From Carboxydocella thermautotrophica (GTDB taxonomy: Bacteria; Bacillota; GCA-003054495; Carboxydocellales; Carboxydocellaceae), in assembly GCA_003054495.1 (NCBI GenBank), contig CP028514.1:670501-734500 (forward strand): a stretch of DNA of 64,000 bases. The letters are read 5' to 3'. Made by a program: the position numbers and the translations under genes. Shown in pieces: positions 45,051-64,000 of this stretch (position 1 is the stretch's first letter; every line of letters starts with the position of its first letter). The notes under the pieces are model-generated. The model was given only the letters and a program-made list of their open reading frames with translations. It was not told the origin of the DNA and made no database searches.

Positions 45051-45088
45051 AATAGCAAAGGATGTGTTCAGTATAGAAGGTGGATGTT

Positions 45089-45810: not shown

Positions 45811-45814
45811 GCAA

Positions 45815-45848
45815 CAAGAGGACCGCTGATAGGTCCTCTTGTTTTTTT
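45815..45848 (+). terminator. Terminator after the GNAT gene
   Basis: CAAGAGGACC (45815-45824) / GGTCCTCTTG (45832-45841) then seven T. The T run and end of the stem also form the -35 of the acr3 promoter. Confidence 0.88.
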
Positions 45849-45867
45849 CCCACCCCTGACATATAAT
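45839..45867 (+). promoter_or_regulatory. Promoter of the acr3-arsR operon
   Basis: TTGTTT (45839-45844), 17 bases, TATAAT (45862-45867). Downstream repeats of ACATAT (about 45877-45888) with ATAT-rich surroundings could be the ArsR operator. Confidence 0.65.
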
Positions 45868-45921
45868 ATAATTAACATATCAACATATCTAAATATATAA
45901 ATAAAGGAGGCCTTATTAAAC

Positions 45922-46977: not shown

Positions 46978-46990
46978 CAGGAGGCTAACC

Positions 46991-47305
46991 ATGAAAGAAC
47001 TGGCGGAAAAACTGCGGGCCCTGGCGGATGAGAATCGGCTGCAGATTATCCGGCTGCTGGCCCGGGGAGAGCTGTGTGTCTGTGAAATCATGGATTATCT
47101 GGAGATGAGTCAGCCAACAGCCTCCCATCATCTGAAAATCCTGAGACAGGCCGGACTGGTGACGGATCGCAAAGAGGGGCGCTGGAGTTATTACCGTTTG
47201 CAGTCTGAGGCTGTGCAGGCACTGACGGCAGAAATCCAGGGCCTGCTTGTCACCGGGGAACCACTACCTCCCCGGCCTGCCAGCCGGTGTCAGCCAAAGG
47301 AGTAA
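46991..47305 (+). CDS. arsR: ArsR-family metalloregulator
   Basis: Winged-helix repressor of 104 residues. The arsenite-binding motif ELCVCEIMDYL (CxC in helix alpha3) and the recognition helix QPTASHHLKILRQAGLV are present. The expected behaviour is repression of the operon, relieved by arsenite. A further cysteine lies near the C-terminus (SRCQPKE). AGGAGGCT upstream of ATG. Confidence 0.95.
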   Translation: MKELAEKLRALADENRLQIIRLLARGELCVCEIMDYLEMSQPTASHHLKILRQAGLVTDRKEGRWSYYRLQSEAVQALTAEIQGLLVTGEPLPPRPASRCQPKE

Positions 47306-47311
47306 AAGAAC

Positions 47312-49399
47312 ATGAAAGCGGTCAAAGATGATGAACTAACCTGGATCCCTACCTGTTGCAATGGCTGTGGCGGCCAGACCGGTATTCTGGCCGGCATCAG
47401 GGATGGGGAGGTAGTCAAAATCAAGCCCAATTCCGAAAACCCGATCGGAGTGGCCCTGACCTGGGAGGAGTTTCAGGAGCAAAAACAGCGCGGTGGGCGG
47501 GTCTGCTTGAAAGGAGTGCATGCTCCCCGGCAGTGGGCGGATCCGGAACGCCTTACCCGGCCCCTTCTGCGCAAAGGGCCACGGGGCAGCGGGCAGTGGC
47601 AGACCATCAGCTGGGAAGAGGCCCTCGCACTACTGGCAGAACGGCTGGAGCAGTTGCGGCGGGAACATGGGCCGGAAAGTCTGCTCTGGTTTTGTGAAGA
47701 TCATTCCTTTATTCACATTCAGGAGGAGTTTTGCCGGGCCTATGGCACTCCCAATTTCCTCAACCACACCAATATCTGCGATGCCGGTCGGCGGGCCGGA
47801 TTTCTGCGGGTTCTGGGCATAGAGCGTCCGCTGGCCCATTTGTCTCAGGCCCGGGTCATTCTGCTGCTGGGCTGGAACCCCCTGGAGGCAGTGAAATGGA
47901 TGTACTTGCCGGCAGCTCTGGAGCAGGCTCTGGACCAGGGGGCCCGGCTGTTTGTGGCTGACCCGGTCAGGAGCAAAACCGCCAGCCGCGGTCACTGGCT
48001 GCCAGTGCGACCGGGAACCGATGGGGCCCTGGTGCTGGCTCTTTGCCATATCCTCTGGCGGGATGGCAAATATCAGCGGGATTTTGTCCAGCAATACACC
48101 AGTGGCTGGGATGAATTCGCCGTCTATCTGCAGGACAAAACCCCGGCCTGGGCTGCCGAACTGACCGGCCTGGAGGAAAGGAAAATTGAGGAACTGGCTG
48201 CTCTGCTGGCCGAATATGCACCCAGGGTAGTGGTGGATGCCTGGTGTGGTGTCAGCCATTACAGTAACGGTATGGAAACTACCCGGGCGGTGGCCTGTCT
48301 CAATGCCCTGCTGGGAACCATTGATCGCCCCGGTGGATTGCTCTGGCCGGAAAGGTTTAAACTGACGGGGCGTCCTCCGCAACCGAACTGGCCGCAGATT
48401 GCCAGTCCTGCTGTCGATGGGCGAGGAGCAGCCTATCCCTTTGCCCACAAGTCCGGCAGTTATGTGGCAGCCCGGGAAGCCATTCTCAGCGGACAGCCCT
48501 ATCAGCCGCGGGCGGCAGTGGTGGTTTTTCAGAATCTGATGCTATCCCTGCCCAATGTGGAGAAAAGCGAAGCAGCCCTGCGTCGCCTGGATTTTCTGGC
48601 TGTTTGCGATGTCTATCTGTCTGAAACGGCCCTGCTGGCTGATCTGGTCCTGCCAGGTACTCATTTTTATGAACGTTATGACCTGACAGTAAACTGGACG
48701 GCTTTTCCTTCCCTCAGTTTGCGCCAGCCGGTGGTGGAGCCGCGGTCCGGCATCTGGCCGGAATATGAATGGATTCTGGAACTGGCCCGGAAATTGAGCT
48801 TATCCGGATTTGACCTTTCTTACCAGCAGTACCTGGACTGGCAGGTGAAACAGGCCTGCGGACTTTCCTTGTCGGAACTGGCCAGCCTGCCGGGAGCGGT
48901 ATTCAACCGGGGACCGACCCGTTATGAGAAATGGCGGGAACGGCCCTTTCCTACTGAAAGCGGCCGCATCCAGCTGGGCTGTGACTGGCAGCCGCCAGGG
49001 ACTTTGCCCAATCAGGATTATCCCTTTTATATGGTTAACTGGAAAGTGTATCAGCATACCCATACCCGCAGCCAGAACAATCCGGCTCTGTTACAAGCCT
49101 ATGGGGAAAACCCCCTCTGGATTCATCCCGAGACAGCAGCAGCTCTGGGTATTGGCCCGGAGGACCGGGTACGGGTAGAATCAGAGTATGGCTGGATTGA
49201 GAGCGGGGTTTTCCTTACAGAAGGTATCCATCCCCGGGTGGTAGGCCTGGCCCATGGTTTTGGCCACTGGGCCCTGGGCAGTCGGGCTAAAGGGCGGGGG
49301 GCAGCCGTAAATCGTTTGTTGGCCGGTACGGCAGAAGCAGGCAGCGGTCAGGCTATTCTCAAGGAATGCCGGGTTAGGCTAAGAAAGGTTGACAAATGA
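47312..49399 (+). CDS. Cytoplasmic molybdopterin oxidoreductase linked to arsenic genes
   Basis: DMSO-reductase-family enzyme of 695 residues without a Tat signal. The N-terminal Fe-S region has Cys at 15, 16 and 19 (PTCCNGCGGQTG) and Cys 65 in GRVCLKG. The third Cys of the usual CxxCxxxC pattern is replaced by Thr 23. The likely Mo ligand is Cys 156 in NHTNICDAG, as in the PsrA/PhsA/ArrA group. Later motifs: GTDGALVLALCHIL, DAWCGVSHYSNGMET, LPGTHFYERYD and the C-terminal dinucleotide domain HTHTRSQNNP. It follows arsR by six bases, so a role in arsenic redox chemistry is likely, but it is not a recognised arrA, arxA or aioA. No partner Fe-S subunit follows. ATG with AAGGAG upstream. Confidence 0.85.
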   Translation: MKAVKDDELTWIPTCCNGCGGQTGILAGIRDGEVVKIKPNSENPIGVALTWEEFQEQKQRGGRVCLKGVHAPRQWADPERLTRPLLRKGPRGSGQWQTISWEEALALLAERLEQLRREHGPESLLWFCEDHSFIHIQEEFCRAYGTPNFLNHTNICDAGRRAGFLRVLGIERPLAHLSQARVILLLGWNPLEAVKWMYLPAALEQALDQGARLFVADPVRSKTASRGHWLPVRPGTDGALVLALCHILWRDGKYQRDFVQQYTSGWDEFAVYLQDKTPAWAAELTGLEERKIEELAALLAEYAPRVVVDAWCGVSHYSNGMETTRAVACLNALLGTIDRPGGLLWPERFKLTGRPPQPNWPQIASPAVDGRGAAYPFAHKSGSYVAAREAILSGQPYQPRAAVVVFQNLMLSLPNVEKSEAALRRLDFLAVCDVYLSETALLADLVLPGTHFYERYDLTVNWTAFPSLSLRQPVVEPRSGIWPEYEWILELARKLSLSGFDLSYQQYLDWQVKQACGLSLSELASLPGAVFNRGPTRYEKWRERPFPTESGRIQLGCDWQPPGTLPNQDYPFYMVNWKVYQHTHTRSQNNPALLQAYGENPLWIHPETAAALGIGPEDRVRVESEYGWIESGVFLTEGIHPRVVGLAHGFGHWALGSRAKGRGAAVNRLLAGTAEAGSGQAILKECRVRLRKVDK

Positions 49400-49417
49400 A
49401 CCTTCCCTTGCTAAACT
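49389..49417 (+). promoter_or_regulatory. Promoter of the Mn riboswitch transcript
   Basis: TTGACA (49389-49394), 17 bases ending TGC, TAAACT (49412-49417). It overlaps the stop region of the oxidoreductase gene. Confidence 0.65.
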
Positions 49418-49433
49418 ATACTTAGCATATACA

Positions 49434-49533
49434 CAGGGGGAGTAGCTGTCGGGCAAATTGCCCGGTGAACAGAGTCGTCATTCCGGCCGTTTAGGCCCGG
49501 CTCTGTTGGCTGATGGAGCCAAGCAAGACCCTG
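49434..49533 (+). ncRNA. yybP-ykoY manganese riboswitch
   Basis: The conserved elements appear in order: CAGGGGGAGTAGC, GTCGGGCAAATTGCCCG, AACAGAGTCGTCA, a variable GGCC-closed hairpin, GGCTCTGTTGGC and AGCAAGACCCTG. This is the known Mn2+-sensing yybP-ykoY architecture, with P1 formed by CAGGG and CCCTG. It sits upstream of a CaCA exchanger and is followed by a terminator whose left arm includes the 3' side of P1. In this class Mn2+ binding stabilises P1 and prevents the terminator, so the exchanger should be switched on by Mn2+. Confidence 0.93.
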
Positions 49534-49567
49534 TCTTTCCTGAGCAGGAAAGGCAGGGTCTATTTTT
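49526..49567 (+). terminator. Expression-platform terminator of the Mn riboswitch
   Basis: AGACCCTG (49526-49533) / CAGGGTCT (49554-49561) with inner CTTTCCT / AGGAAAG, followed by ATTTTT. The left arm is shared with riboswitch helix P1, so the two structures are mutually exclusive. Confidence 0.88.
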
Positions 49568-49599
49568 GTTAATAATAAAGTTGATAGGAGGGGATAGTT

Positions 49600-50577
49600 A
49601 TGTTGTGGCAGTTATTGGGAGGACTGATTATTATCTTAATTGGGGCTGAACTTTTCACCAATGGGATTGAGTGGCTGGGCAAAAAGCTTAATCTGTCCCA
49701 GAGTGCAGTGGGAAGTGTGCTGGCGGCTGTCGGCACAGCCTTACCGGAAAGCATGATTCCGGTGATAGCCATTTTATTTGGTGTGGGAGAAGCCGGGCAT
49801 CATATCGGGGTAGGGGCGATTCTGGGTGCCCCCTTTATGCTGGTCACCCTGGGGCTGGCCCTGGTGGGAACCGGGGCTCTGGTTTACCGGAAGCGACGGG
49901 AAACAGGCACTGAGGTGGCAGTCAACAAAGGACAGCTCAACCGGGATCTGGGCTTCTTCCTGGTCTTCTACGGTCTGGCGGTAGTCGCAGCTTTCCTGCC
50001 CGGTTGGGCCAAATATGGTATCGCTCTGGTGCTGGCCGGGGGCTATTTCTGGTATGTCTGGCGTACCCTGCAGGCTGACTGTGAAGCCATCGGCCACTGT
50101 CCCCCTCTCTATCTGGCTCGCAAAAACCCGGAACCGGGCAAGCCGCTGGTGATTTTGCAGGTAGTGCTGGCATTAGGGGTGATTATCCTGGGGGCCAAAC
50201 TGTTCGTAAGTGGAGTAGAGGAAATAGCGGTCTGGCTGGGCCTCAGTCCTATGCTGGTCGCCCTGATTCTCGCCCCGGTGGCCACCGAGTTGCCGGAAAA
50301 ACTGAACAGCATTATCTGGATGCGGCAGAATAAGGATGTAATGGCCACTGGCAACATGACAGGAGCGATGGTCTTTCAGAGCAGCCTGTTGCCGGCCTTT
50401 GGTATGGTTTTCACCGACTGGCAGCTGGGGCAACAGGGGCTGACCAGTATCGGCCTGGCCCTGGTGGCTGCTCTAGTCCTCTGGCTGGTGAACCGGCGGC
50501 GCCAGGGCCGCATTCCAGGCCAGCTGCTCCTTTTGTTTGCGATTTTTTATTTGCTTTTTGTACTGACCATTATATAA
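49600..50577 (+). CDS. CaCA-family cation exchanger, probably manganese export
   Basis: Membrane antiporter of 325 residues with about ten helices in two alpha-repeats. The first repeat has AAVGTALPESMIPVIAIL and the second APVATELPEKLNSIIWM; both carry the acidic ion-binding residues of the Na+/Ca2+ exchanger family (YrbG-like). The Mn riboswitch in its leader suggests Mn2+ (or Ca2+/Mn2+) efflux coupled to Na+ or H+. AGGAGGGGATAG upstream of ATG. Confidence 0.88.
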   Translation: MLWQLLGGLIIILIGAELFTNGIEWLGKKLNLSQSAVGSVLAAVGTALPESMIPVIAILFGVGEAGHHIGVGAILGAPFMLVTLGLALVGTGALVYRKRRETGTEVAVNKGQLNRDLGFFLVFYGLAVVAAFLPGWAKYGIALVLAGGYFWYVWRTLQADCEAIGHCPPLYLARKNPEPGKPLVILQVVLALGVIILGAKLFVSGVEEIAVWLGLSPMLVALILAPVATELPEKLNSIIWMRQNKDVMATGNMTGAMVFQSSLLPAFGMVFTDWQLGQQGLTSIGLALVAALVLWLVNRRRQGRIPGQLLLLFAIFYLLFVLTII

Positions 50578-50598
50578 TGACAGCAGGGGGTGGTGTTC

Positions 50599-51144
50599 AT
50601 GTTGTTAAGGGAAATCCTGGAAGCTAACCGGGAATTTGTCCAGCGCTGGGAACAGGAGCGGGAAGCCCGGCAGGCGGGCAAGTTGCCGGCCAAAAAACTG
50701 GCCATTTTCTCCTGTATGGATACCCGGCTAGTGGAAATGCTGGAGCCGGCCCTGGGTTTAAAACGGGGGGAAGCCAAGGTTATCAAAAATGCCGGTACTA
50801 TTTTAACCGAAGATGTGGTACGCAGCCTGGCCGTGGCTATCTATTTGCTGGGGGTAGAAGAGGTGGTGGTAATCGCCCACCTCGATTGCGGAATGGCCAA
50901 ACCGGATGCGGATAGGATGCGGCAGGCCATGCTGGCCCGGGGTGTGAAGCCGGAAGACCTGGAGGGTGTGGACCTGGCTGCCTGGCTTCAGGGCTTCGGG
51001 GAAGATTACCACGGCCATGTGCGAGAAGTGGTGGCAGGATTGCGCAATCACCCGCTTTTGCCTAAAGATATTCCTTATCATGGCCTTTTATTCTGTCCCG
51101 ATACCGGGCATCTGGAACTGGTAGTGGATGGGTATAAAGAGTAG
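50599..51144 (+). CDS. Beta-carbonic anhydrase family protein
   Basis: Protein of about 181 residues. The zinc ligands and dyad of beta-carbonic anhydrases are present: FSCMDTR (CxDxR) and IAHLDCGM (HxxC). Interconverts CO2 and bicarbonate, useful for biotin carboxylases. The region KVIKNAGTILTEDVVRSLAVA is typical. It is a short, minimal form. ATG at 50599 is preferred over GTG at 50590 by spacing to AGGGGG. It may be cotranscribed with the exchanger, whose stop is 21 bases away. Confidence 0.88.
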   Translation: MLLREILEANREFVQRWEQEREARQAGKLPAKKLAIFSCMDTRLVEMLEPALGLKRGEAKVIKNAGTILTEDVVRSLAVAIYLLGVEEVVVIAHLDCGMAKPDADRMRQAMLARGVKPEDLEGVDLAAWLQGFGEDYHGHVREVVAGLRNHPLLPKDIPYHGLLFCPDTGHLELVVDGYKE

Positions 51145-51264: not shown

Positions 51265-53535
51265 ATGAAAAAAATTAAGCCTACTTTTTTAAAACTCATA
51301 GCATCATACATTTTATTGACTTCTATTATCTTGCTTGTTACTACAGTAATTTTATATAAAGGTTATAAAGAACAAATTATTGAACAAGCAGATATAGCAT
51401 CCCAACAAATGCTTAGTCAAGCAAAGTATTACACTCAACATACGGAGAATTGGGCTAAATCATTCATTTATCAGCTTTATATTGATAAAGATATATATAA
51501 ATTAATGTATGAAACTAATCGGGATTATTCTCAAAATGTTTTAATCGGTATGATGAAAATTCGTCAAGCAGCCACTTTGGTGCCGCTTATACATTCAATT
51601 TATATTTATAATAATGTTAATAAAATGTTTTATTCTTCTCTCGGGAACAGTGCTGACCGATTTACATTTGAAGATCAAGGCATTGTAGAGTTATTAAAAG
51701 AAAATAATCAAACATTTAGCAGTAATTTAATCCCGCGTTATGTTGATTTTAACACCAATGGTTTGAAGTATAGAAAAAACCTGCTAACTATCATTCTTTC
51801 CAATGTGAAAAATACCCGTAATAATATGCCAGATGGTGCAATAATTATAAATATTGATGCTGATAATGTTGAAAGTTATTTCAAAAATAGTATTTCTGGT
51901 CAAAATAATCTTATTTTGGCTATAAACACTGGCGGAAAAATAATTTTTCATCCTGACCCTAAATTATATTTAACTAATATTTCTAATAAAAGTTATATTA
52001 AAAAAATTTTAAAGGAACACAAAACAGGAGGAAGTTTTATTCAAGAAATTAGTGGGAAACCTTCAATTGTTACGTTTTTGAAGTCACCACGTTCAGATTT
52101 GATTTTTATTAATATAACTGCTTACGATACTCTTCTTGGCACAATCAATAAAATGGTACGGCTGATTATTATAGTAATCATTTTAACTTTACTGATAGGT
52201 ATATTCTTTGCAATCTATTTATCGCGTAATATTTATCAACCTATTAACAAGGCTGTTAATTATTTAAAAGACATAGCACCAATGGACAGCTACAGAGATG
52301 AACTTGACTATTTGGTCCTTGCCGTGGATAAAATTTTAAACACTCCTTCATCTCTCAAAGATCTTTCAATAGAAGATAAAAAAATGATTAAAGAAAAGCT
52401 TTTACTTGGGATCGTCCTCGATACGATCGATGATTATGAAAAATTACAAGAAAAAATTGAAGAATTACAACTGAAAATTAGTAATAGTAATAGCTTTATT
52501 GTTATTGTCTTCAAGATTGATAATTATAAAGAAACTGGTCAATTTACCAACCATTTAGTTGAGTTTTTCGAAAGAGATGAAGTAGACTATGAGTTTTTAC
52601 AATTAGAAGATAGTGAGATAACATTAATTAAGGGTTTTACAACTTTAGTTTCTGTTCCTGATATTATAGAAAGCATCAGGCTAATACAGAATGAAATAAA
52701 ACAAAATCTAGGCATAACAGTATCAGCAGGCTTAGGGGAGTGTGTAGAAAGTTTAACAGAAATAAACAGATCATATAAAATAGCAAAAGAATGTTTAAAT
52801 TACCGCTATAAATATGGTAAAGAAAATATACTTTATTATGATAAAATTGTTTCAGAACTATCAGAGGGCTATAAATATAATAGTAACCTGGAACAGAACA
52901 TTTTTAACGCTCTGAAAATGGGTAACCTGACAAAAGTTGAAGAAGAATTAAATAAAATGTTAGCTGAAATCAAAAATTATACTTATCATGAAGTATTATT
53001 GGCTTTGACCCAATTGGCGTTAAATTCAAAGATTTTGATTACCAATTTGTCTCAGATGAGTAACCAGAGTTTGTATATTGACATCCAGGAATTTAAAAAA
53101 GTAATAGAAAATATGGAAGACCTGGATGAAGCAAAACAGTGGTTTATAGAACTATATAAAAATACCATAGAAAAACTAAAAGAAAAGAAAGTTAACCGCA
53201 AAAAAGATTTAATATATAATGTGATAAAATATATAGAAGAAAACTATCATGATCCCCAGTTATCACTGGAAATCATTGCTGAACATTTTGGGATTTCGCC
53301 TAATTATTTGCGGATGCAGTTTAAAGAAGCAGAAAACAAGTCCTTATCTGCTTATATTAACGAGTTGCGTTTTGAAAAGGCTAGACAATTGCTTGAAGAA
53401 ACCAGTTTAACTGTAAAAGAGATAGCAATTAAAGTTGGGTTTGAAAATTATAACTACTTTTATACTGCCTTCAAAAAATATTATGGCTTATCACCTAATC
53501 AGTTCCGTTTAAATATTGAAAAAAAGAATAAGTAG
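51265..53535 (+). CDS. Membrane-bound AraC-family regulator of the inositol locus
   Basis: Protein of 756 residues, one-component sensor. N-terminal helix (about 12-34), a large outer domain of Cache-like style (about 35-290), a second helix (about 297-320, LIIIVIILTLLIGIFFAIY), then a cytoplasmic linker. The C-terminal AraC DNA-binding domain (about 655-755) has LEIIAEHFGISPNYLRMQFKEA and TVKEIAIKVGFENYNYFYTAFKKYYGLSPNQF. This layout is shared with YesN/YtdP-type regulators of sugar loci. Very AT-rich with many Asn, Ile and Lys codons, unlike its neighbours, indicating separate ancestry. Likely activates the downstream ABC and catabolic genes; ligand unknown. Confidence 0.87.
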   Translation: MKKIKPTFLKLIASYILLTSIILLVTTVILYKGYKEQIIEQADIASQQMLSQAKYYTQHTENWAKSFIYQLYIDKDIYKLMYETNRDYSQNVLIGMMKIRQAATLVPLIHSIYIYNNVNKMFYSSLGNSADRFTFEDQGIVELLKENNQTFSSNLIPRYVDFNTNGLKYRKNLLTIILSNVKNTRNNMPDGAIIINIDADNVESYFKNSISGQNNLILAINTGGKIIFHPDPKLYLTNISNKSYIKKILKEHKTGGSFIQEISGKPSIVTFLKSPRSDLIFINITAYDTLLGTINKMVRLIIIVIILTLLIGIFFAIYLSRNIYQPINKAVNYLKDIAPMDSYRDELDYLVLAVDKILNTPSSLKDLSIEDKKMIKEKLLLGIVLDTIDDYEKLQEKIEELQLKISNSNSFIVIVFKIDNYKETGQFTNHLVEFFERDEVDYEFLQLEDSEITLIKGFTTLVSVPDIIESIRLIQNEIKQNLGITVSAGLGECVESLTEINRSYKIAKECLNYRYKYGKENILYYDKIVSELSEGYKYNSNLEQNIFNALKMGNLTKVEEELNKMLAEIKNYTYHEVLLALTQLALNSKILITNLSQMSNQSLYIDIQEFKKVIENMEDLDEAKQWFIELYKNTIEKLKEKKVNRKKDLIYNVIKYIEENYHDPQLSLEIIAEHFGISPNYLRMQFKEAENKSLSAYINELRFEKARQLLEETSLTVKEIAIKVGFENYNYFYTAFKKYYGLSPNQFRLNIEKKNK

Positions 53536-53882: not shown

Positions 53883-54887
53883 ATGATGAAGAAATTTTTA
53901 AAGATCATTAGTTTAATAGTAATTTTGTCATTGGTAGTTGCCGGTTGTGGAACTAAAAAGAATGAAACAGCGCAAAACAACAATGAACAAAACAGCGGAG
54001 CTACACAACAGAAACCCAAAATTGCAGTAGTATTAAAGGCAGTGAACAGTGACTACTGGAAGATTGTGCAAGCAGGGGCAATGGATGCTGCCAAAGCTCT
54101 GGGAGTTGAGGTAGAAGTTTTGGGTCCCAATGCCGAAACGGATATTGCTGGGCAAACTTCTATAATGGAAGACCAAATTGTCAAGAAAGTATCGGCTCTG
54201 GTAGTAGCACCTTCCCAGCCAAGCGCTGCCGTTGCGACTTTTGATAAAGCCGATGCAGCCGGCATTCCGGTACTCTTAATTGATACTGATGCTAATTGGG
54301 ATAAGAAGAAGTCCTTTATCGGTACCGGTAATTTCGCCGGTGGCAAAATCGGGGGCAAATTTTTGGCCGAAAAATTAGGTAAGGGTGCTGAAGTGGTAAT
54401 CATTCGCGGTGCTTTGGGCGATGCTACCCATGATGAACGGGTTAACGGTGCCAAGGAAGAATTGGAAGCTGCCGGTTTAAAAGTGGTTGCCATTCAACCC
54501 GCTAACAGTGACAGGAATATGGGTATGTCAGTAATGGAAAACCTGCTGCAAACTTATCCTAATGTCAAAGGGGTATTTGCTTCTAATGATGAAATGGCTC
54601 TGGGGGCGGTAAGAGCGTTGAAGCAAGCCAAAAAGACTGATGTGGTAGTTGTTGGTTTTGACGGTTCGCCGGATGCCTTAAAGTCTATTAAAGCCGGGGA
54701 ATTAAGTGGTTCTGTGGCGCAAAGTCCCTATAATATCGGTAAATTTGGCGTAGAAGCTGCTGTCAAAGTGGTAAAGGGAGAAACAATCGAAAAGCGGATT
54801 GATACTGGCACCAGCATGATTACAAAAGATAATGTGGATCAAGCTATCTCTGATTTGGAAAAAATTCTGGGCAAAAAAATTAACTAA
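53883..54887 (+). CDS. Sugar/polyol ABC transporter substrate-binding lipoprotein (RbsB type)
   Basis: Periplasmic-binding-protein-like lipoprotein of 334 residues. Signal with lipobox VVAGC (Cys about residue 22), Asn/Gln-rich tether, then the type I SBP fold. It has KIAVVLKAVNSDYWKIVQAG, a hinge region VSALVVAPSQPSAAVA, a central VIIRGALGDATHDERVNGAKEE and the late VVVGFDGSPDALKSIKAG. Homologues bind ribose, xylose or myo-inositol. The downstream iolB and iolD make inositol or an inositol isomer the likely ligand. GGGGAGG upstream; ATG at 53883 or 53886. Confidence 0.88.
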   Translation: MMKKFLKIISLIVILSLVVAGCGTKKNETAQNNNEQNSGATQQKPKIAVVLKAVNSDYWKIVQAGAMDAAKALGVEVEVLGPNAETDIAGQTSIMEDQIVKKVSALVVAPSQPSAAVATFDKADAAGIPVLLIDTDANWDKKKSFIGTGNFAGGKIGGKFLAEKLGKGAEVVIIRGALGDATHDERVNGAKEELEAAGLKVVAIQPANSDRNMGMSVMENLLQTYPNVKGVFASNDEMALGAVRALKQAKKTDVVVVGFDGSPDALKSIKAGELSGSVAQSPYNIGKFGVEAAVKVVKGETIEKRIDTGTSMITKDNVDQAISDLEKILGKKIN

Positions 54888-54956: not shown

Positions 54957-56453
54957 ATGATCCGGCCTTTTTTAGAGCTTAAAGGTGTATCTAAAGTATT
55001 TCCTGGAGTAAAAGCACTTGATGCGGTGGATTTAGAGATTTACCCCGGGGAAGTTCATGGTCTGATTGGTGAAAACGGCGCCGGAAAATCAACGTTAATT
55101 AAAATTTTAACCGGCGCTCATAAGCATGATGCCGGTCAGATTTTTATTGAAGGGCAAGAAATAAAAATTCTCAATACCAAAAAGGCAATGGAACTTGGAA
55201 TTACTGCGATATACCAGGAACTTAACATAGTTAAAGAATTGTCTGTATATGAAAATGTTTTTCTTGGGCGAGAAATAAAAAAGAATAACGGCAAATCTGT
55301 ATTTTTGGATATCAACCTGATGAAAGAAAAGTCCCGGCAGCTGTTAAGTGAGCTCGGGCAAAATATCGACCCCGGTGTAAATATCGGAACCTTAGGAATT
55401 GGCAAACAACAAATGGTGGAAATAGCCAAGGCTTTATCGGTTCAAACCAGGTTATTAATTATGGATGAACCTACGTCCAGTCTAAGTGGAAAGGAAGTCA
55501 GGGAACTTTTAAAAACGGTTAAAGAGTTAAAAAACAAAGGTATTGGTATTATCTTTATTTCCCATCGGTTGGATGAGGTAATGGAGATATGTGACCGCAT
55601 TACAGTTATGCGGGATGGAAAAAAAATTACCACAATGCTGGCCCGGGAGGCTACCGTGGACGAGTTAATTAAATTGATGGTGGGAAGAAGCCTGGAGCAA
55701 CAATTTCCCAAAATTAAAGTCACGCGCGGGGAAGAGATTTTAAGAGTTGAAAAATTAACCCGTCAGGGTGTTTTTAAAGATGTAAGTTTTTCGCTTTATC
55801 GCGGGGAAATCCTGGGCATTGCCGGTTTGGTGGGTTCGGGAAGAACGGAAGTAGCCAGGGCGATTTTTGGAGCTGATGAACTGGATAGTGGTGAGATTTA
55901 TATAAAGGGACAGAAAGTGCAAATCAAATCACCTAAAGATGCCATGAAGTACGGAATTGCTTTCTTAACTGAGGATCGTAAAGGGCAGGGCCTGGTTCTG
56001 GATAACACAGTGGATTTCAATATGAATCTGGCCGTTTATGACAAAGATAAATCAATGCTGCTTGATTTAAAAAAATTAAAAGAATTAACTATGAAAAATA
56101 TTAAGAAGCTAAATTTGAATCCTCCTTCTGCCAGCTTTATTGTCAGGCAGCTCAGTGGAGGTAACCAGCAAAAAGTGGTTATCGGTAAATGGTTAAATAC
56201 CAATGCCAGTATTTATATTTTCGATGAGCCTACCCGCGGAATTGATGTTGGTGCCAAAGTGGAAGTTTATAATGTGATCAACGAACTGGTAGCAGGCGGT
56301 GCGGCGGTTATTATGATTTCTTCCGAATTGCCGGAGCTATTAGGTATGTCAGACAGAATTATTGTTATGAGCGAGGGCAAAGTGACTGCGGAATTGATGA
56401 GAGACCAAGCCAATCAGGAAAATATTATGAGAGCAGCAACAGGGGGAGTTTGA
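54957..56453 (+). CDS. Sugar/polyol ABC transporter ATPase (RbsA/MglA type)
   Basis: Double-ATPase subunit of 498 residues. First half: Walker A GENGAGKSTLIKIL, signature region GIGKQQMVEIAKALS, Walker B LLIMDEPTSSLS. Second half: degenerate Walker A GLVGSGRTEVARAI, LSGGNQQKVVIGKWL and IFDEPTRGIDVGAK. This is the normal layout for monosaccharide importers. Between SBP and permease in one operon. AGGTG upstream of ATG. Confidence 0.93.
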   Translation: MIRPFLELKGVSKVFPGVKALDAVDLEIYPGEVHGLIGENGAGKSTLIKILTGAHKHDAGQIFIEGQEIKILNTKKAMELGITAIYQELNIVKELSVYENVFLGREIKKNNGKSVFLDINLMKEKSRQLLSELGQNIDPGVNIGTLGIGKQQMVEIAKALSVQTRLLIMDEPTSSLSGKEVRELLKTVKELKNKGIGIIFISHRLDEVMEICDRITVMRDGKKITTMLAREATVDELIKLMVGRSLEQQFPKIKVTRGEEILRVEKLTRQGVFKDVSFSLYRGEILGIAGLVGSGRTEVARAIFGADELDSGEIYIKGQKVQIKSPKDAMKYGIAFLTEDRKGQGLVLDNTVDFNMNLAVYDKDKSMLLDLKKLKELTMKNIKKLNLNPPSASFIVRQLSGGNQQKVVIGKWLNTNASIYIFDEPTRGIDVGAKVEVYNVINELVAGGAAVIMISSELPELLGMSDRIIVMSEGKVTAELMRDQANQENIMRAATGGV

Positions 56454-57449
56454 ATGGGAGACTTAAATCAGCGCTTTCAATTGAATGAGGGTATGACACT
56501 TAAAAACGCAGTATCAAAATTTGGGTCACTCCTTGGCTTATTATTGCTTTCAATTATACTGGCCCTTGCTTCCGACCATTTTCTGACTTTGGATAACCTG
56601 ATGAATATTGCCCGGCAATCAGCTATAAACAGTTTAATCTCCATGGGGATGTTATTGACAATATTAACGGCCGGTATTGACCTATCGGTAGGCTCTATTT
56701 TGGCTTTGTCGACAATGGTCATGGGAGTGACTACCGTTACCTGGGGATTAAATCCCTTTCTGGGCATTCTGGCCGGAATTTTAACCGGTACAGCCTTGGG
56801 ATTGTTAAACGGCTTGTTATTAACCAAACTGAAATTACCCCACCCTTTTATTTCTACCCTTGGTACTAAAAACATTGCCCGGGGTTTAGCTCTTATAATA
56901 ACCGGGGCCACTCCAATTTCCGGTTTTCCCAGGTCAATCCAGTTCATAGGTTCGGAATTTATCGGACCGGTGCCGGTGAGTTTTATTCTTGTCATAATCA
57001 TGTGTATTCTATTTGCTGTTTTCCTCAATCGTACCGCCTATGGTAAACACATTTATGCCGTGGGTGGGAACCTGGAAGCTGCCAAACTTTCCGGGATAAA
57101 TGTGGAAAAAACTTTAGTGATGGTTTATACCATCTCCGGGACCATGGCGGCAATTGCCGGGCTTGTTCAGGTAGGCCGGGTTAATGCAGCTTTTCCCCTG
57201 GCCGGTCTGGATTATGATCTGGATGCCATTGCGGCAGTAATCATCGGTGGCGCTTCTTTTATGGGCGGTCAAGGAACTGTTTGGGGAACCCTGATTGGAG
57301 CAATGATTATGGCAGTATTGCGCAATGGCTTGAATCTGCTTGGGGTTTCTGCCGATTTGCAAACTGTAGCCATCGGTATTGTTATCATTGGGGCAGTTTA
57401 TGTAGATGTTTTACGCAGACAAGCTTTGAAGAAAGCCAAAGCAAACTAA
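56454..57449 (+). CDS. Sugar/polyol ABC transporter permease (RbsC type)
   Basis: Membrane permease of 331 residues with eight to ten helices. Motifs: LMNIARQSAINSLISMGMLLTIL, GIDLSVGSILALS and the ATPase contact region AVGGNLEAAKLSGINV. The ATG starts right after the ATPase stop with GGGGGAG upstream. Completes the importer. Confidence 0.93.
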   Translation: MGDLNQRFQLNEGMTLKNAVSKFGSLLGLLLLSIILALASDHFLTLDNLMNIARQSAINSLISMGMLLTILTAGIDLSVGSILALSTMVMGVTTVTWGLNPFLGILAGILTGTALGLLNGLLLTKLKLPHPFISTLGTKNIARGLALIITGATPISGFPRSIQFIGSEFIGPVPVSFILVIIMCILFAVFLNRTAYGKHIYAVGGNLEAAKLSGINVEKTLVMVYTISGTMAAIAGLVQVGRVNAAFPLAGLDYDLDAIAAVIIGGASFMGGQGTVWGTLIGAMIMAVLRNGLNLLGVSADLQTVAIGIVIIGAVYVDVLRRQALKKAKAN

Positions 57450-57467: not shown

Positions 57468-58496
57468 ATGGTTAAAGTAGGTGTAGTAGGTTATGGTGTA
57501 ATCGGACAACGTCTGGCTGACGGGGTAAAACTACAAAAAGACATGGAGCTTGTAGGAGTTGCGGATGTGGCTCCCACTCTGGCGGTAAGGGCTTTGAAGG
57601 AAAAAGGTATGCCCTATGATTTATATCTTGCTGTTCCGGAAAATAAACCCAAATTTGATGAACTGGGTATCCCCGTATCCGGTACTCTGGAAGATCTGGT
57701 GCAAAAATGTGATATCATCCTGGACGCTACCATTGCCGGTGTCGGAGCAAAAAACAAAGAGATTTATAAAAAGTATGGTAAAAAAGCTGTTTTCCAGGGT
57801 GGCGAAAAAAATGATGTGGCCGATGTATTTTTCCATGGTTATGCCAACTACGAAAAAGGTTTGGGCAAGCAATTTTTAAAACTGACATCATGTAACACTA
57901 CCGGTCTAATCCGTGCTGTAGATTGCCTGGATCGTGCCGTGGGTATTGAAAAAGTTGCTATCACTATCATCAGAAGAGTGGCAGATCCTGGCGATTATCA
58001 CCGGGGCCTGACCAATGCTTTGCAGGTTGAAAAGGCACCCAACCACCAGGCGGTGGATTTAATGACGATTATGCCCCATATTGACGCTACTGGTATCCTG
58101 GTACACACCCCTGTTACCCATGGCCATATAATTACGGTTTTGGCCACCCCTAAACAAGATCTTTCCGTTGAGGAAGCCATCAAGCTCTTTAATGCCCATC
58201 CGCGGATCAGAGTTGTTCGGATAGCTGACGGGTTCCAGGGCAATGCCGCTCTCTTCCGTTATGCCAGAGATCTGGGCAATCCCCGTGGAGACATGTATGA
58301 AATTGCAGTCTTTGAAGAAACGATTGTCAAATCCGGTCGCGATATTATGTTCGCTATTAATATTCCCCAGGAAGCAGTGGTTATTCCTGAAAGCATGGAT
58401 GCTATCCGGGCTGCACTGGAACTGCAAACTGACCGTCTGGAAGCGGTAGGCAAAACTAACGAGTATTTGGGGATGGGAAAATGGATGCAAAAGTAA
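57468..58496 (+). CDS. Archaeal-type (type II) GAPDH homologue
   Basis: Aldehyde dehydrogenase of 342 residues homologous to archaeal phosphorylating glyceraldehyde-3-phosphate dehydrogenase. N-terminal Rossmann motif GVVGYGVIGQRLADG (residues 5-19), catalytic Cys 142 in LTSCNTTGLIR, Arg 169-170 in IIRRVADPGDYHRG, and His 218/220 in TPVTHGHI. Compared with the archaeal consensus as I remember it (RRAADP...KKGP, PSHHGPD), this protein has HRGL at 178-181 and NHQAVD at 192-197, changes close to the substrate phosphate pocket. It is the first enzyme gene after the importer and overlaps the PGK gene by 16 bases. The role may be oxidation of glyceraldehyde 3-phosphate or of a carboxylate analogue (see findings). 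Confidence 0.85.
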   Translation: MVKVGVVGYGVIGQRLADGVKLQKDMELVGVADVAPTLAVRALKEKGMPYDLYLAVPENKPKFDELGIPVSGTLEDLVQKCDIILDATIAGVGAKNKEIYKKYGKKAVFQGGEKNDVADVFFHGYANYEKGLGKQFLKLTSCNTTGLIRAVDCLDRAVGIEKVAITIIRRVADPGDYHRGLTNALQVEKAPNHQAVDLMTIMPHIDATGILVHTPVTHGHIITVLATPKQDLSVEEAIKLFNAHPRIRVVRIADGFQGNAALFRYARDLGNPRGDMYEIAVFEETIVKSGRDIMFAINIPQEAVVIPESMDAIRAALELQTDRLEAVGKTNEYLGMGKWMQK

Positions 58497-59749
58497 ACAT
58501 CGGAATCAGAACCATGGATGAATTTGACTACAGCGGCAAAAGGGTTTTGCTACGGCTGGATATCAATTCCCCCATCGATCCGGTAACTAAAAAAATCGTT
58601 AATGAAAACCGGATTAACATGAGTATTCCTACCCTTAAATACCTGCTGGACAGAGGGGCTAAAGTAGCCATCATAGCCCATCAGGGGGATACCCTGGATT
58701 ATCATAACTTGATTCCTTTGCAGGAACATGCGGAAAAACTTTCACTCAAATTGGGAAAAACAATCCGTTATATTGATGATGTCTGCGGGCCAGCCGCTCA
58801 GGAAGAGATAAAGAAGTTGATGCCCGGGGAGGCAATTTTGCTCGGTAATTTACGTTATCTGACCGAAGAAGTTTCTACCTTTGAAAAAGATGTAAAATTA
58901 CAGCCTGCGGAAATGTTGAACACTTATTTAGTAAGAAGCCTGGCGCCATTGTTTGATTACTATGTTAATGATGCTTTTGCAGCTGCTCATCGCAATGCCC
59001 CTTCCATGGTCGCCTTTCAGGAAATTTTGCCTTCGGCTGGCGGGATGTTGCTGATTCAGGAGCTAAATGCTTTGATCAGGGTTAGGGAAAATCCTGACAA
59101 ACCGGCAGTTTTTGTTCTGGGGGGCCTGAAAATATCTGATGCCTTCGGCATGATGAAACAAGCTCTGCAAAGCGGTACGGCAGATAAAATCCTGGCCTGC
59201 GGGGTAACCGGTCATATTATGTTAATTGCTGCCGGCTACGATATCGGGAGTAAAAACACTAAATTTATTTATGACCGTTCCCTGGATGTATTTATTCAAC
59301 CAGCAAAAGAGTACTTACGAGATTATCCCGGTAAAATTGTTTATCCTGTTGACCTGGCTTATGAAAATGATGGCCAAAGAGCGGAAATAGATATTGAAAA
59401 CCTGCCAGCTGATGAGCTCTGTATGGATATCGGACAAAAAACCATTGCTATCTTTAAAAATGAGTTAGCGTCTGCAGGCACCATTTTCGTCAATGGTCCG
59501 GCCGGGGTTTATGAAAATCCTCTCTTTGCCGATGGTACCAGAGAAATCTGGGAAGCCATTGCCAACAGTAAGGGATATTCGGTCATCGGGGGCGGTGATA
59601 CGGTCAGCGCAGCCCAGAGGTTTATTGATACTTCCAAAATTGATTATGTATGTACCGCGGGCGGAGCAATGGTCAGATTTTTATCCGGTGTCAAACTACC
59701 CTTGCTTGAAGCAATGAGAAAGGGGTGGACCAATGCTAAGCAGGGATAA
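58481..59749 (+). CDS. Archaeal-type phosphoglycerate kinase homologue
   Basis: Acyl-phosphate kinase-type protein of 422 residues. PGK features: RVLLRLDINSPID at 21-33, Arg 44 (NENRINMSIPT), NLRYLTEEV, VNDAFAAAHRNAPSMVAF, VLGGLKISDAF and GPAGVYENPLF, and a nucleotide-binding GGGDTVSAA. The sequence is of the archaeal branch. At 67-71 it reads HQGDT where archaeal PGKs usually have HQGKP or HQGRP, so a positively charged residue in the phosphoglycerate site is replaced by Asp 70. Overlaps the GAPDH homologue (16 bases) and the transketolase gene (17 bases). Reaction may be ATP formation from 1,3-bisphosphoglycerate or from another acyl phosphate. Confidence 0.85.
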   Translation: MDAKVNIGIRTMDEFDYSGKRVLLRLDINSPIDPVTKKIVNENRINMSIPTLKYLLDRGAKVAIIAHQGDTLDYHNLIPLQEHAEKLSLKLGKTIRYIDDVCGPAAQEEIKKLMPGEAILLGNLRYLTEEVSTFEKDVKLQPAEMLNTYLVRSLAPLFDYYVNDAFAAAHRNAPSMVAFQEILPSAGGMLLIQELNALIRVRENPDKPAVFVLGGLKISDAFGMMKQALQSGTADKILACGVTGHIMLIAAGYDIGSKNTKFIYDRSLDVFIQPAKEYLRDYPGKIVYPVDLAYENDGQRAEIDIENLPADELCMDIGQKTIAIFKNELASAGTIFVNGPAGVYENPLFADGTREIWEAIANSKGYSVIGGGDTVSAAQRFIDTSKIDYVCTAGGAMVRFLSGVKLPLLEAMRKGWTNAKQG

Positions 59750-60581
59750 AATTCAGCAATTGGAAGCCTTTGCGACCAAAATCAGGATGGAAACTATCAG
59801 AGCTATCGGGCATCTGGGCTTTGGTCACGTCGGTGGATCTATGTCCATTGCCGATACGGTGGCGGTATTATACGGGGAAGTAATGCGGGTAGATCCCCAA
59901 AATCCCCGCTGGGAAGACAGAGACTGGCTGTTCTGTTCCAAAGGGCATGCGGGACCGGCAATTTATGCGGCTCTGGCTTTAAAAGGTTTTTTCCCGCTAG
60001 AAGAATTGCTGACGTTAAATAAACCGGGGACTAAACTGCCCAGTCACTGTGACCGTAATTTGACTCCTGGCGTGGATATGACAACCGGCTCCCTGGGCCA
60101 GGGAGCCTCCACCGCCCTGGGGGTGGCTTTAGGTAACAAGTTGGACGGCAGAGAAAGTTATACGTATTTAATTCTTGGCGATGGCGAAATGCAGGAAGGG
60201 CAGGTCTGGGAAGCTATTCTCTATGCTGCCCAGAAGCAACTGGATAATTTGATTGTGTTCGTAGACTACAACAAAAAGCAGCTGGATGGAAATATCCAGG
60301 ACATTAATGACCTGGGAGATCTGAAAGCCAAGTTTGCCTGTTTTAACTGGCATGCCCAGGAAGTGGACGGCCACAATGTAGAGGAAATCTACACGGCCAT
60401 TCTCAAGGCCAAAGAAGTAAAACACCGGCCTTCAGTAATAATACTGCATACTATTAAAGGTAAAGGGTGTAATTTTGCCGAACAGGCTGCGGCAAACCAC
60501 CATATGGTTGTAAGCCGGGAGCAGGCAGAAGCAGCAATTGCTTTTCTGGAGAAAGAGCTGGAAAAGGTGGTGCAGCAATGA
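59733..60581 (+). CDS. Transketolase, N-terminal (ThDP-binding) subunit
   Basis: Split transketolase, 282 residues: the part binding the thiamine diphosphate pyrophosphate. It has IRAIGHLGFGHVGGSMSIAD, SKGHAGPAIYAALALKGF, and the ThDP motif LGDGEMQEGQVWEAILYAAQKQLDNLIVFVDYN. Further along comes TIKGKGCNFAE. Together with the next gene (ATGA overlap) it forms a full enzyme transferring a two-carbon ketol unit. Located between the PGK homologue and iolB, so substrate may belong to inositol breakdown. Confidence 0.93.
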   Translation: MLSRDKIQQLEAFATKIRMETIRAIGHLGFGHVGGSMSIADTVAVLYGEVMRVDPQNPRWEDRDWLFCSKGHAGPAIYAALALKGFFPLEELLTLNKPGTKLPSHCDRNLTPGVDMTTGSLGQGASTALGVALGNKLDGRESYTYLILGDGEMQEGQVWEAILYAAQKQLDNLIVFVDYNKKQLDGNIQDINDLGDLKAKFACFNWHAQEVDGHNVEEIYTAILKAKEVKHRPSVIILHTIKGKGCNFAEQAAANHHMVVSREQAEAAIAFLEKELEKVVQQ

Positions 60582-61543
60582 AAGCAATCCTTGCAGAACA
60601 GAGAATAGCAGAAGCAAAGGAAATGCGTAGCGTTTATTGTGAAACCCTGATGGAACTGGCTCAGAAGGACCCAAGGATTGTAGTACTGGATGCAGATTTG
60701 ATGAGCTCGATGGGAATGGTCCCTTTTGCCAAAGCTTTTCCGGAGAGAACATTCAATGTGGGGGTTCAGGAAGCCAATATGATTGGCGTAGCAGCAGGGT
60801 TGTCGGCAACCGGCAAAATTCCTTTTGCTCACACCTTTGGACCCTTTGCTACCCGGCGCGTTTACGACCAGCTCTTTTTATCCTGCGCTTATGCCCGTTT
60901 AAATGTCAGAGTAACCGGCAGTGATCCAGGTGTAACTGCTGCCTTCAATGGCGGAACCCATATGCCCTTTGAAGATATGGGGATTGTCAGGAATATACCG
61001 GGAGTTACTATTCTGGAACCGGTGGACTCGGTGATGCTGAAAGATTTATTAACTCAAACGGTGGACATGTTTGGTGTGTTTTATATCAGGCTGTTGCGGA
61101 AAAACGCCATTAAGATTTATCAGGAAGGCTCCAGCTTTACAATTGGCAAAGGTATAACTTTACGAGATGGAGATGATGTTACTGTCTTTGCTACCGGCAT
61201 CATGGTGGATGAAGCCTTAAAGGCGGCCACAGAGCTAGAGCGGGAAGGGGTTTCCGTCAGGGTAGTCAATATTTTCACTTTAAAACCCATCGACAAAGAA
61301 CTTATAATCAAGTGTGCCCGGGAAACCGGAGCGCTTGTTACGGCTGAAAACCATAGCATCATCAACGGCCTGGGCTCGGCGGTAGCGGAAGTGATTGCTG
61401 AAAATTGCCCGGTACCATTAGAACGGGTAGGGGTAAATGACCTGTTTGGTGAAGTGGGCCCAGTTGATTACCTTAAAGAAAGATTTAATCTGACTGCTAA
61501 AGATATTGTAGCAAAAGTCCGTAAGGTTTTAGACAGAAAATAA
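60578..61543 (+). CDS. Transketolase, C-terminal subunit
   Basis: Second subunit, 321 residues, with the pyrimidine-binding domain containing the activating Glu in NVGVQEANMIGVAAGLS and the C-terminal transketolase domain (VTVFATGIMVDEALKAA, VSVRVVNIFTLKPIDKE). The segment VRVTGSDPGVTAAFNGGTH corresponds to the substrate channel. Start overlaps the N-subunit stop by four bases. Expected complex: alpha2beta2, cytoplasmic. Confidence 0.93.
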   Translation: MKAILAEQRIAEAKEMRSVYCETLMELAQKDPRIVVLDADLMSSMGMVPFAKAFPERTFNVGVQEANMIGVAAGLSATGKIPFAHTFGPFATRRVYDQLFLSCAYARLNVRVTGSDPGVTAAFNGGTHMPFEDMGIVRNIPGVTILEPVDSVMLKDLLTQTVDMFGVFYIRLLRKNAIKIYQEGSSFTIGKGITLRDGDDVTVFATGIMVDEALKAATELEREGVSVRVVNIFTLKPIDKELIIKCARETGALVTAENHSIINGLGSAVAEVIAENCPVPLERVGVNDLFGEVGPVDYLKERFNLTAKDIVAKVRKVLDRK

Positions 61544-61562: not shown

Positions 61563-62360
61563 ATGATGTACAGAATCAGAAGAGAAAGGCCTTTTGACTA
61601 CGGTTATAACCCCATCACCTCTCACGATGAACAAGAAAACAATACGTTGATGGATTTCGGTATTCTGAAACTGAAGTCCGGTCAGATAGAGACTTCGGCG
61701 GAAAGCAAGGAGCGGGCTTATTTATTAATCAGTGGCCGGGTTTTACTGGAGTGGCAGGGAAAAACTCAAGAAGTTGCCCGTCAATCCTTTTTAGAGGAAA
61801 ACCCCTGGGTGTTACACGTACCTCAGGGAGTGGAAGTGAAAATAACCGGAATTGGCCCAGATTCGGAGGTTTGTGTAATTAAAACCTTAAATAATGAGGA
61901 TTTTGAGCCCAAATTATATTCTCCGGCCGACTGTGCCTGTGAAGATCGGGGTAAAGGCAGTATGCAGGAAACTTCAACCCGGGTGGTAAGAACTGTATTT
62001 GATTATTCTAATGCTCCTTATTCCAGGCTGGTACTGGGAGAGGTAGTTAATTATCCTGGCAAATGGTCCAGTTATCCGCCCCATCACCATCTTCAACCGG
62101 AAATTTATTTTTATAAATTCTATCCGGAACACGGTTACGGTTTTGCCCAACTGGGAGAAGAGGTACTTAAGGTCAAACACAATGATACAATAAAAATTTT
62201 AGATAATGTTTCTCATCCGCAAGTGGCGGCGCCGGGATATGCCATGTTTTATGTCTGGGTAATCAGGCAACTGGATAATAATCCCTATATCACTCCAGTG
62301 TTTGAACCGGAGCATCTATGGGTTATGGAAAAAGATGCCAAAATATGGCCGGACAAATAA
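61563..62360 (+). CDS. iolB: 5-deoxy-glucuronate isomerase IolB
   Basis: Converts 5-deoxy-D-glucuronate to 2-deoxy-5-keto-D-gluconate in myo-inositol catabolism. It has 265 residues: double cupin with metal-binding His in WSSYPPHHHLQPEIYFYKF and later VSHPQVAAPGYAMFYVW, both typical for IolB. N-terminal MMYRIRRERPFDYGYNPI. ATG at 61563 or 61566; the upstream sequence GGTGGTGAG gives a modest ribosome site. Together with the next gene, iolD, it identifies the locus. Confidence 0.93.
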   Translation: MMYRIRRERPFDYGYNPITSHDEQENNTLMDFGILKLKSGQIETSAESKERAYLLISGRVLLEWQGKTQEVARQSFLEENPWVLHVPQGVEVKITGIGPDSEVCVIKTLNNEDFEPKLYSPADCACEDRGKGSMQETSTRVVRTVFDYSNAPYSRLVLGEVVNYPGKWSSYPPHHHLQPEIYFYKFYPEHGYGFAQLGEEVLKVKHNDTIKILDNVSHPQVAAPGYAMFYVWVIRQLDNNPYITPVFEPEHLWVMEKDAKIWPDK

Positions 62361-62381: not shown

Positions 62382-64000
62382 ATGAAAACCATTCGACTGA
62401 CAATGGCCCAGGCTTTAGTTAAATTTTTAGATAACCAGTATGTGGAGTTTGACGGCCAGGTGACGAAGTTTGTCAAAGGCGTGTTTTCCATTTTTGGCCA
62501 TGGTAATGTAACTGGTTTGGGCCAGGCCCTGGAAGAGCATAAAGGCAGCCTGGTGTTATATCAGGGCAGAAATGAACAGGGCATGGCTCATGCGGCCATT
62601 GCTTACGCCAAGCAAAAAAACCGGAGAGAAATTATCGCTTGTACCACTTCCATTGGCCCGGGAGCCTTGAATATGGTGACAGCTGCTGGTACAGCAACTG
62701 TGAATAGAATTCCTCTCTTATTATTGCCAGGGGATACATTTGCCTGCCGGCAACCGGACCCGGTATTACAACAAGTTGAAGATCCCACTGATTATACAAT
62801 CACTGCCAATGATGCCTTTAAACCAGTTTCCCGGTACTGGGACAGAATTACCCGGCCAGAGCAACTGATGACGGCAGCAATTAATGCCATGCGAGTGTTA
62901 ACCGATCCGGCCGAAACCGGTACCGTCACATTGTGTCTGCCGCAAGATGTTCAGGCCGAAGCTTACGATTATCCGATCGAGTTTTTTGCCAAACGAGTAC
63001 ATCACATTGAAAGAATGCTGCCTACTGCCGGGGCTGTTGCCAGAGCAGTTGAGTTAATAACCAGGAAAAAGAAACCTCTCCTGATTTGCGGTGGGGGAGT
63101 GGTTTATTCTGAAGCACAAGAGGAACTGAAGAATTTTGTAGAAGCTTTTCAAATACCTTTTGCGGAAACCCAGGCAGGTAAAGGCTTGCTGCCCTGGAAT
63201 CACAGCCTTAATCTCGGGGGAATCGGGGTAACAGGTACCCAGGCTGCCAATGAAATCGCCCGGGATGCTGACCTTGTTATTGCTGTAGGAACAAGGCTTT
63301 CCGATTTTACTACAACCTCAAAATGGGCTTTCCAGAATCCTGAGGTTGAAGTGTTAGCTATCAATGTCAATAAATTTGATGCCATGAAAATGAATGCTAC
63401 CTTTATTCAGGCTGATGCCGCTGAAGGGCTGAAGGCTTTGACAGAAGCCTTAAAAAAGGCAGGTTATCGTTCCGGTTATCAAGATGAAATCAGGGTTGCC
63501 AAGGAAAAATGGGACAGGGAAGTTGACCGCTTATATGCCATCGAGCTGGAGGAAGGATTGGCTCAGACAAGAGTATTAGGGGAACTGAACCGTTCAATTG
63601 GTGAAGATGCAATTATAGTTGGTGCTTCCGGCAGTTTACCTGGAGATTTACAGCGAATCTGGCGTCCGCTAAAACCCAAAACCTATCACATGGAATACGG
63701 TTTTTCCTGTATGGGGTATGAAGTAAGCGGGGCCCTGGGTGTAAAAATGGCAGAGCCTGACCGGGAAGTTTATGTTATGGTAGGGGACGGCAGTTATTTG
63801 ATGCTCCATTCCGAACTGGTAACCAGTATCCAGGAAGGCTATAAAATTAACATTATGCTCTTTGATAATAATGGTTTCCAGTGTATCAATAATCTGCAGC
63901 GCTCCCAGGGTATACCAACTTTTGGAACTGAGTTTAGATATCGCTCAGCAGAAACCGGCCGGTTAACGGGAGAATATATGGCGATTGATTTTGCAGCTAA
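62382..64000 (+). CDS. iolD: Trihydroxycyclohexane-1,2-dione hydrolase IolD (3' partial)
   Basis: ThDP-dependent ring-opening enzyme of inositol catabolism giving 5-deoxy-glucuronate. The frame runs from ATG 62382 beyond the window end (539 codons seen). Text closely parallels B. subtilis Iol[98 protein letters not shown] and the ThDP loop [29 protein letters not shown] precedes the start, 21 bases after iolB. Confidence 0.95.

Follow-up and report, generated by a model that had tools for sequence, protein, structure and literature searches.

A phosphoglycerate kinase homologue with an altered substrate site in a candidate transketolase-dependent inositol pathway of Carboxydocella thermautotrophica

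What does a phosphoglycerate kinase (PGK) homologue act on when it carries an acidic residue at the point in its substrate site where a basic one is expected? The question is raised by a gene at 58481..59749 (+) of a 64,000-nucleotide stretch of the Carboxydocella thermautotrophica genome (contig CP028514.1, positions 670,501 to 734,500; here called the window), which lies directly behind a homologue of glyceraldehyde-3-phosphate dehydrogenase (GAPDH) and ahead of inositol genes. The kinase has most probably changed its substrate and, with its GAPDH partner, uses malic semialdehyde for substrate-level phosphorylation, as part of an inositol pathway that depends on transketolase. It is also probable that this is an undescribed pathway, in which transketolase replaces the kinase and aldolase steps and the neofunctionalised GAPDH/PGK pair makes ATP via D-malyl phosphate.

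The kinase homologue and its dehydrogenase partner

The gene is a single open frame of 422 amino acids; an antisense reading was rejected, as that strand is full of stops and has no long frame. In a profile search the PGK model PF00162 covers the protein over its full length (357.7 bits, cut-off 27), and its AlphaFold2 model (pLDDT 91.8) has as nearest fold in the PDB the archaeal-type PGK of Pyrococcus horikoshii (EC 2.7.2.3; 2cun), with TM scores of 0.85/0.88 and 36% identity in the fold alignment. By both measures the protein is a member of the PGK superfamily. It shares with the archaeal-type enzyme the catalytic and nucleotide-site residues and a gene position beside a type II GAPDH. The clade to which it belongs differs from that enzyme in having Asp-Thr in place of Lys/Arg-Pro at 70-71, glycine in place of glutamate at 122 (E/D among PGKs more widely), and Cys-Thr-Ala in place of Ser-Thr-Gly at 391-393, so that C391 and A393 fall in the hinge STGGGA motif.

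The original prediction drew attention to residues 67-71, and its reading of them is exact: the sequence is HQGDT, where 2cun has HQGKP and bacterial PGKs have HLGRP. Position 70 is the equivalent of R65 in mammalian PGK. There three arginines, R65, R122 and R170, form bonds with the substrate's 3-phosphate, in agreement with the role that had been assigned to the basic residue, and R65 and R170 form salt bridges with D218 upon domain closure (PMC7729029). As had also been noted, the other catalytic features are retained: D27, N29, R44, H67, R125, R171, K217 and D220 correspond, in order, to the mammalian D23, N25, R38, H62, R122, R170, K215 and D218. The basic patch associated with EC 2.7.2.3 is incomplete throughout the clade, with D70 at the R65 site in 36/36 sequences and both of the other arginines kept.

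To place the protein amongst its relatives, 84,980 species genomes were scanned, which gave 35 orthologous loci (52-78% identity) and 26 others whose PGK is an ordinary archaeal-type or bacterial one; 27 PGK sequences covering position 70 formed the comparison set for that site. Thr71 is as invariant in the clade as Asp70 (36/36), whereas the comparison PGKs have arginine (24), histidine (2) or lysine (1) at position 70 and none of the 27 has the Asp-Thr combination. HQGDT is thus not a chance replacement. In a quick tree the clade forms one branch among the archaeal PGKs, with an SH-aLRT of 100 and a long stem. The hosts belong to Bacillota, Thermotogota, Spirochaetota and Fusobacteriota, together with Gammaproteobacteria bins, and include the cultured Caloramator, Fonticella and Clostridium magnum. 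The gene is rare, being present in 3 of the 299 sampled genomes of the phylum, this one counted; a class-wide search came to only 4 genomes.

The charge change at position 70 would not suffice by itself for a shift of substrate, and it is the gene context that carries the weight. A carboxylate has less charge than a phosphate, so that a swap from basic to acidic in the kinase runs in the expected direction for the substrate proposed below. The yeast R65Q mutant of PGK reportedly keeps its activity, which weakens the argument from charge.

The partner gene at 57468..58496 (+) overlaps that of the kinase by 16 bases and encodes an archaeal-type (type II) GAPDH homologue (NF003251, 414 bits against a cut-off of 185) in which the catalytic Cys143 and His220 are conserved. 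We compared 34 sequences of the clade with 12 ordinary type II GAPDHs. Lys33 is replaced by aspartate in 33/34 of the clade, and H300 by proline, H222 by isoleucine and M219 by glycine in 34/34 each. The surroundings of the active site are altered, KGPIN, PTTLMHxH and HQES of the ordinary enzymes reading HRGLTN, PVTHGHI and PQE(A/S) in the clade. The change of Lys33 to aspartate suggests a preference for NAD rather than NADP and, judged by sequence, both enzymes of the pair have been changed together. We propose that the first is an NAD-dependent phosphorylating (R)-malic semialdehyde dehydrogenase and, from the profile match, the clade conservation and the modelled fold, that the second is a D-malyl-phosphate:ADP phosphotransferase.

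A standard pgk elsewhere in the genome had been set beforehand as a check on the prediction. There is one: the stretch 558920-561111 of the contig carries canonical gap and pgk as a pair, another gap is found at 1067050, and the idea that the homologue is the genome's only pgk was rejected. Taken with the invariance of the clade, the remodelled GAPDH and the neighbouring genes, this supports the suggestion that ATP/acyl-phosphate chemistry may persist here on a different acyl substrate.

A candidate route from inositol to pyruvate

Behind the kinase gene, and likewise on the forward strand, lie the two halves of a transketolase, the N-terminal, thiamine pyrophosphate-binding half at 59733..60581 (PF00456, 184 bits) and the C-terminal half at 60578..61543 (PF02779 and PF02780), so that the cofactor-binding, pyrimidine-binding and C-terminal domains are spread over two adjacent genes. 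They are followed by a divergent IolB-like 5-deoxyglucuronate isomerase at 61563..62360 (+) (PF04962, 185 bits; TIGR04378, 98 bits, cut-off 205) and by IolD, trihydroxycyclohexane-1,2-dione hydrolase, at 62382..64000 (+) (1003 bits, cut-off 715), which runs past the end of the window. The run continues on the contig with IolE (734758-735645; 442 bits, cut-off 290), IolG (735667-736686; 495 bits, cut-off 355), a LarAH6 nickel malate racemase (736723-737973; NF052593, 601 bits, above the curated cut-off of 500), a phosphofructokinase (PFK; 737986-738954; TIGR02482, 418 bits, cut-off 371) and a malic enzyme (738983-740179; assigned by its best-matching model from a truncated frame). In the run from the GAPDH gene through to malic enzyme no gap between adjacent genes exceeds 36 bases, and some genes overlap. 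The IolB homologue represents a separate subfamily that accompanies this cluster, and the PFK is a second copy, the other lying at 15643-16605 of the window adjoining pyruvate kinase.

The block shares with the classical myo-inositol pathway of Bacillus subtilis, Salmonella and Anaerostipes the IolG, IolE, IolD and IolB-like steps to 2-deoxy-5-keto-D-gluconate. It differs in that transketolase, the GAPDH-like and PGK-like proteins, malate racemase and malic enzyme stand in place of IolC, IolA and the DUF2090 aldolase. In the classical route IolC phosphorylates 2-deoxy-5-keto-D-gluconate, IolJ or a DUF2090 aldolase carries out the cleavage, and IolA oxidises malonate semialdehyde (PMC8355322, PMC9007349, PMC9430895); one survey takes iolBCDE as the core of IolCatGC (PMC9430895). 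Profile searches of this genome found no IolC over the curated cut-off, the best match (233 bits) proving to be a PfkB kinase encoded adjacent to an MsmK-type ATPase, no IolA over the cut-off (249 against 448.5 bits) and no match to the DUF2090 aldolase, and completion of the classical route elsewhere in the genome was rejected on these results. Of the classical set of IolB, IolD, IolE and IolC, only IolD and IolE pass, the IolB-like protein and IolC being under their cut-offs. Across the 26 genomes with the gene, this one included, IolC is over the cut-off in 3, IolA in 1 and the DUF2090 aldolase in 0, and two of the three IolC-positive genomes (those of loci L028 and L030) have the GAPDH/PGK pair at a locus that lacks transketolase.

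How could a transketolase take over? By their known family functions IolG, IolE, IolD and IolB would convert myo-inositol to 2-deoxy-5-keto-D-gluconate, which read from C6 is CH2OH-CO-CHOH-CHOH-CH2-COO-. In D-gluconate the hydroxyl of C3 points left and that of C4 right; with the projection turned, C3' would be left and C4' right, that is 3S,4R, and by this configuration argument the compound would have the arrangement of xylulose 5-phosphate and fructose 6-phosphate that transketolase requires. For the next three reactions, those of the transketolase, GAPDH-like and PGK-like enzymes, we infer the following. The split transketolase would move C5-C6 to a sugar phosphate and leave (R)-3-hydroxy-4-oxobutanoate, or (R)-malic semialdehyde (OHC-CHOH-CH2-COO-), an analogue of glyceraldehyde 3-phosphate in which -COO- takes the position of -OPO3. 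With NAD+ and phosphate, the GAPDH homologue would oxidise this to D-malyl-1-phosphate, from which the PGK homologue would pass the phosphate to ADP to give ATP and D-malate. The nickel racemase would then turn D-malate into L-malate, and malic enzyme would convert that to pyruvate, CO2 and reduced cofactor. PFK may help to convert the transferred two-carbon units, through pentose phosphates, to triose phosphates; transaldolase is present in the genome, and the notion that its lack makes the PFK route compulsory was rejected.

The stereochemistry predicts D-malate and ordinary malic enzyme uses L-malate, so a racemase would be needed, and its presence was found independently by the profile search. 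LarAH6/Mar2 racemises malate (PMC7583248), and a LarE-type protein for the racemase cofactor is encoded in the genome (338 bits, cut-off 150). Malate had been named as a candidate substrate in the original prediction, and the racemase and malic enzyme that end the same gene run point to malate as well. The association is recurrent: in the 35 orthologous loci, some of them on short contigs, we find the GAPDH homologue in 34, both transketolase halves in 24, IolD and malate racemase in 22 each and malic enzyme in 15, while under the same thresholds none of these genes accompanies any of the 26 comparison PGKs.

PGK is regarded as an enzyme of a single substrate, and automatic annotation assigns it to glycolysis. 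If the proposal is true, this would be, to our knowledge, the first member of the PGK family with a natural substrate other than 3-phosphoglycerate, the GAPDH/PGK pair would have been recruited as a second module for substrate-level phosphorylation, and the 'pgk' and 'gap' annotations in such genomes would be wrong. Inositol would have an ATP-yielding anaerobic route that is invisible to current pathway tools. The split transketolase resembles that of the sulfoquinovose transketolase (sulfo-TK) pathway, where a two-subunit transketolase cleaves a non-phosphorylated acidic ketose; that pathway differs in its substrate and is not known to have a phosphorylating dehydrogenase and kinase pair after the transketolase. 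A synthetic malyl-phosphate pathway includes a malate kinase and a phosphorylating malate semialdehyde dehydrogenase, activities which its authors called previously unreported, but these were engineered from LysC and Asd, run in the reductive direction and involve 4-phospho-L-malate, the other carboxyl and the other enantiomer (PMC5481828). In the open-licence literature, to which the search was confined (subscription papers lying outside it), we found no account of an inositol route that involves transketolase, malate semialdehyde, malate racemase or malyl phosphate; malyl phosphate came up there in the engineered pathway. A gap-filling study of 2022 found IolJ in 0/15 and the DUF2090 aldolase in 7/15 of known inositol users from a strain database (PMC9007349), and missing inositol routes are thus a live question.

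Other settings of the pair and competing explanations

Several points weigh against the proposed pathway. About one third of the orthologous loci have no transketolase and iol genes nearby, and the inositol context is therefore not universal. The IolB homologue is under the IolB equivalog cut-off (98 against 205) and its substrate may differ. It is possible that a divergent IolC lies under the cut-off, or that an IolJ-type class II aldolase is present, which resembles fructose-bisphosphate aldolase and which a family search cannot discriminate. Some residual function with 3-phosphoglycerate is also possible for the kinase, the equivalents of R122, R170 and H62 being kept.

The retention of all the other catalytic residues is what an ordinary second GAPDH/PGK pair would show, one that boosts glycolytic flux from inositol-derived triose phosphates and tolerates the aspartate with 3-phosphoglycerate still as its substrate. 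The classical inositol pathway does yield triose phosphates, and a crystallised yeast R65Q mutant is on record (1qpg). We nevertheless regard this explanation as unlikely. A canonical gap-pgk is already in the genome, Asp-Thr is invariant in 36 sequences with parallel changes in the GAPDH active site, and IolC, IolA and the DUF2090 aldolase are missing. It would also leave the malate racemase and malic enzyme unexplained. Finally, at two orthologous loci, L030 (7602-12495) and L033 (7564-11242), the pair follows directly on a GABA-transaminase-like gene (88% identity between the loci), and the neighbourhood has no inositol genes.

The layout at L030 and L033 suggests that 4-amino-3-hydroxybutyrate may be turned into malate there and ATP formed, the GABA-transaminase-like enzyme being a plausible second source of malic semialdehyde. 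At L039 (189-7072) the orthologous PGK lies near two MTTB-family (trimethylamine-methyltransferase) genes and an M24-family protein, neighbours which suggest a quaternary amine, carnitine for instance, as the substrate. Either 4-amino-3-hydroxybutyrate or carnitine would yield malic semialdehyde; in Acinetobacter L-carnitine is converted through malic semialdehyde to D-malate (PMC11353897). Among the closest known systems is one with the two proposed intermediates, malic semialdehyde and D-malate, which likewise leads to pyruvate but forms no ATP at the step in question. Different upstream routes thus seem to converge on the GAPDH/PGK pair, and this favours malic semialdehyde as the compound it acts on. 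If this is true the pair would be modular, being linked also to further probable suppliers of malic semialdehyde, aminotransferases for example.

These same transaminase-like neighbours would also fit succinic semialdehyde, and so bear on the still less likely explanation that the pair acts on another aldehyde, taking succinic or malonic semialdehyde to the acid or erythrose 4-phosphate, which a transketolase can release, to 4-phosphoerythronate. Erythrose 4-phosphate bears a phosphate, which is at odds with the lost basic residue, and malate racemase (22/35) and malic enzyme (15/35) indicate malate as the product. That the PGK homologue is catalytically dead and has a structural or regulatory role is very improbable: a conserved substrate-site residue is altered and kinetoplastid PGK-like proteins without catalytic residues are known (PMC7729029), but the nucleotide-site and other catalytic residues are kept in all 36 sequences, which span several phyla, and in almost every case the gene is tightly linked to that of a GAPDH from which the enzyme would be fed.

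Further arrangements of the pair were seen. At L028 (7096-13216) and L035 (986-10479) it occurs with a different IolB-like isomerase, a PGDH-like dehydrogenase, an Asp/Glu-racemase-family protein and malic enzyme, L035 having in addition an aldehyde:ferredoxin oxidoreductase and malate racemase; the flanks of both are without transketolase or IolD/E/G, and perhaps another substrate feeds the same pair. At L034 (2758-15554) a TRAP transporter, a URO-D-family protein, an alcohol dehydrogenase and SDR genes precede the order GAPDH-PGK-transketolase-racemase-malic enzyme, without iol genes, and there another sugar acid probably enters at the transketolase step. Clostridium magnum has two GAPDH/PGK pairs (L015 and L026), one lying in an inositol/transketolase cluster and the other accompanied by just malic enzyme and malate racemase.

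The strain-variable block and its remaining genes

Neither the PGK homologue nor IolD is present in another genome of this species. What is absent from that genome is a block of 18.55 kb, from window position 51144 to contig position 740198 (contig 721644-740198); in an alignment the flanks (window 44500-51143 and from contig 740199) are 99.8-99.9% identical and adjoin in the other strain, which has a short run of some 27 unrelated bases at the site of the block. The G+C content of the block is 42.7%, against 52-56% in the flanks. Its edges coincide with the boundaries of neighbouring genes, the content being exactly the AraC-type regulator through malic enzyme. A same-species strain without exactly this block marks it as a self-contained unit that is not needed for central glycolysis. 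The block looks like a transferable unit; no integrase gene was found among its open reading frames.

The first gene of the block, at 51265..53535 (+), encodes the AraC-type transcriptional regulator, with an N-terminal sensor region and AraC-family matches at the C-terminus. It is followed by an RbsB-like periplasmic sugar-binding protein at 53883..54887 (+) (NCBIfam RbsB, 213 bits, under the cut-off of 337), which from its context is probably for inositol uptake. By sequence and position the next two genes encode the ATPase of a sugar ABC transporter, with two ABC domains (54957..56453, +), and its permease (56454..57449, +). The ABC transporter genes are conserved beside the cluster in several relatives.
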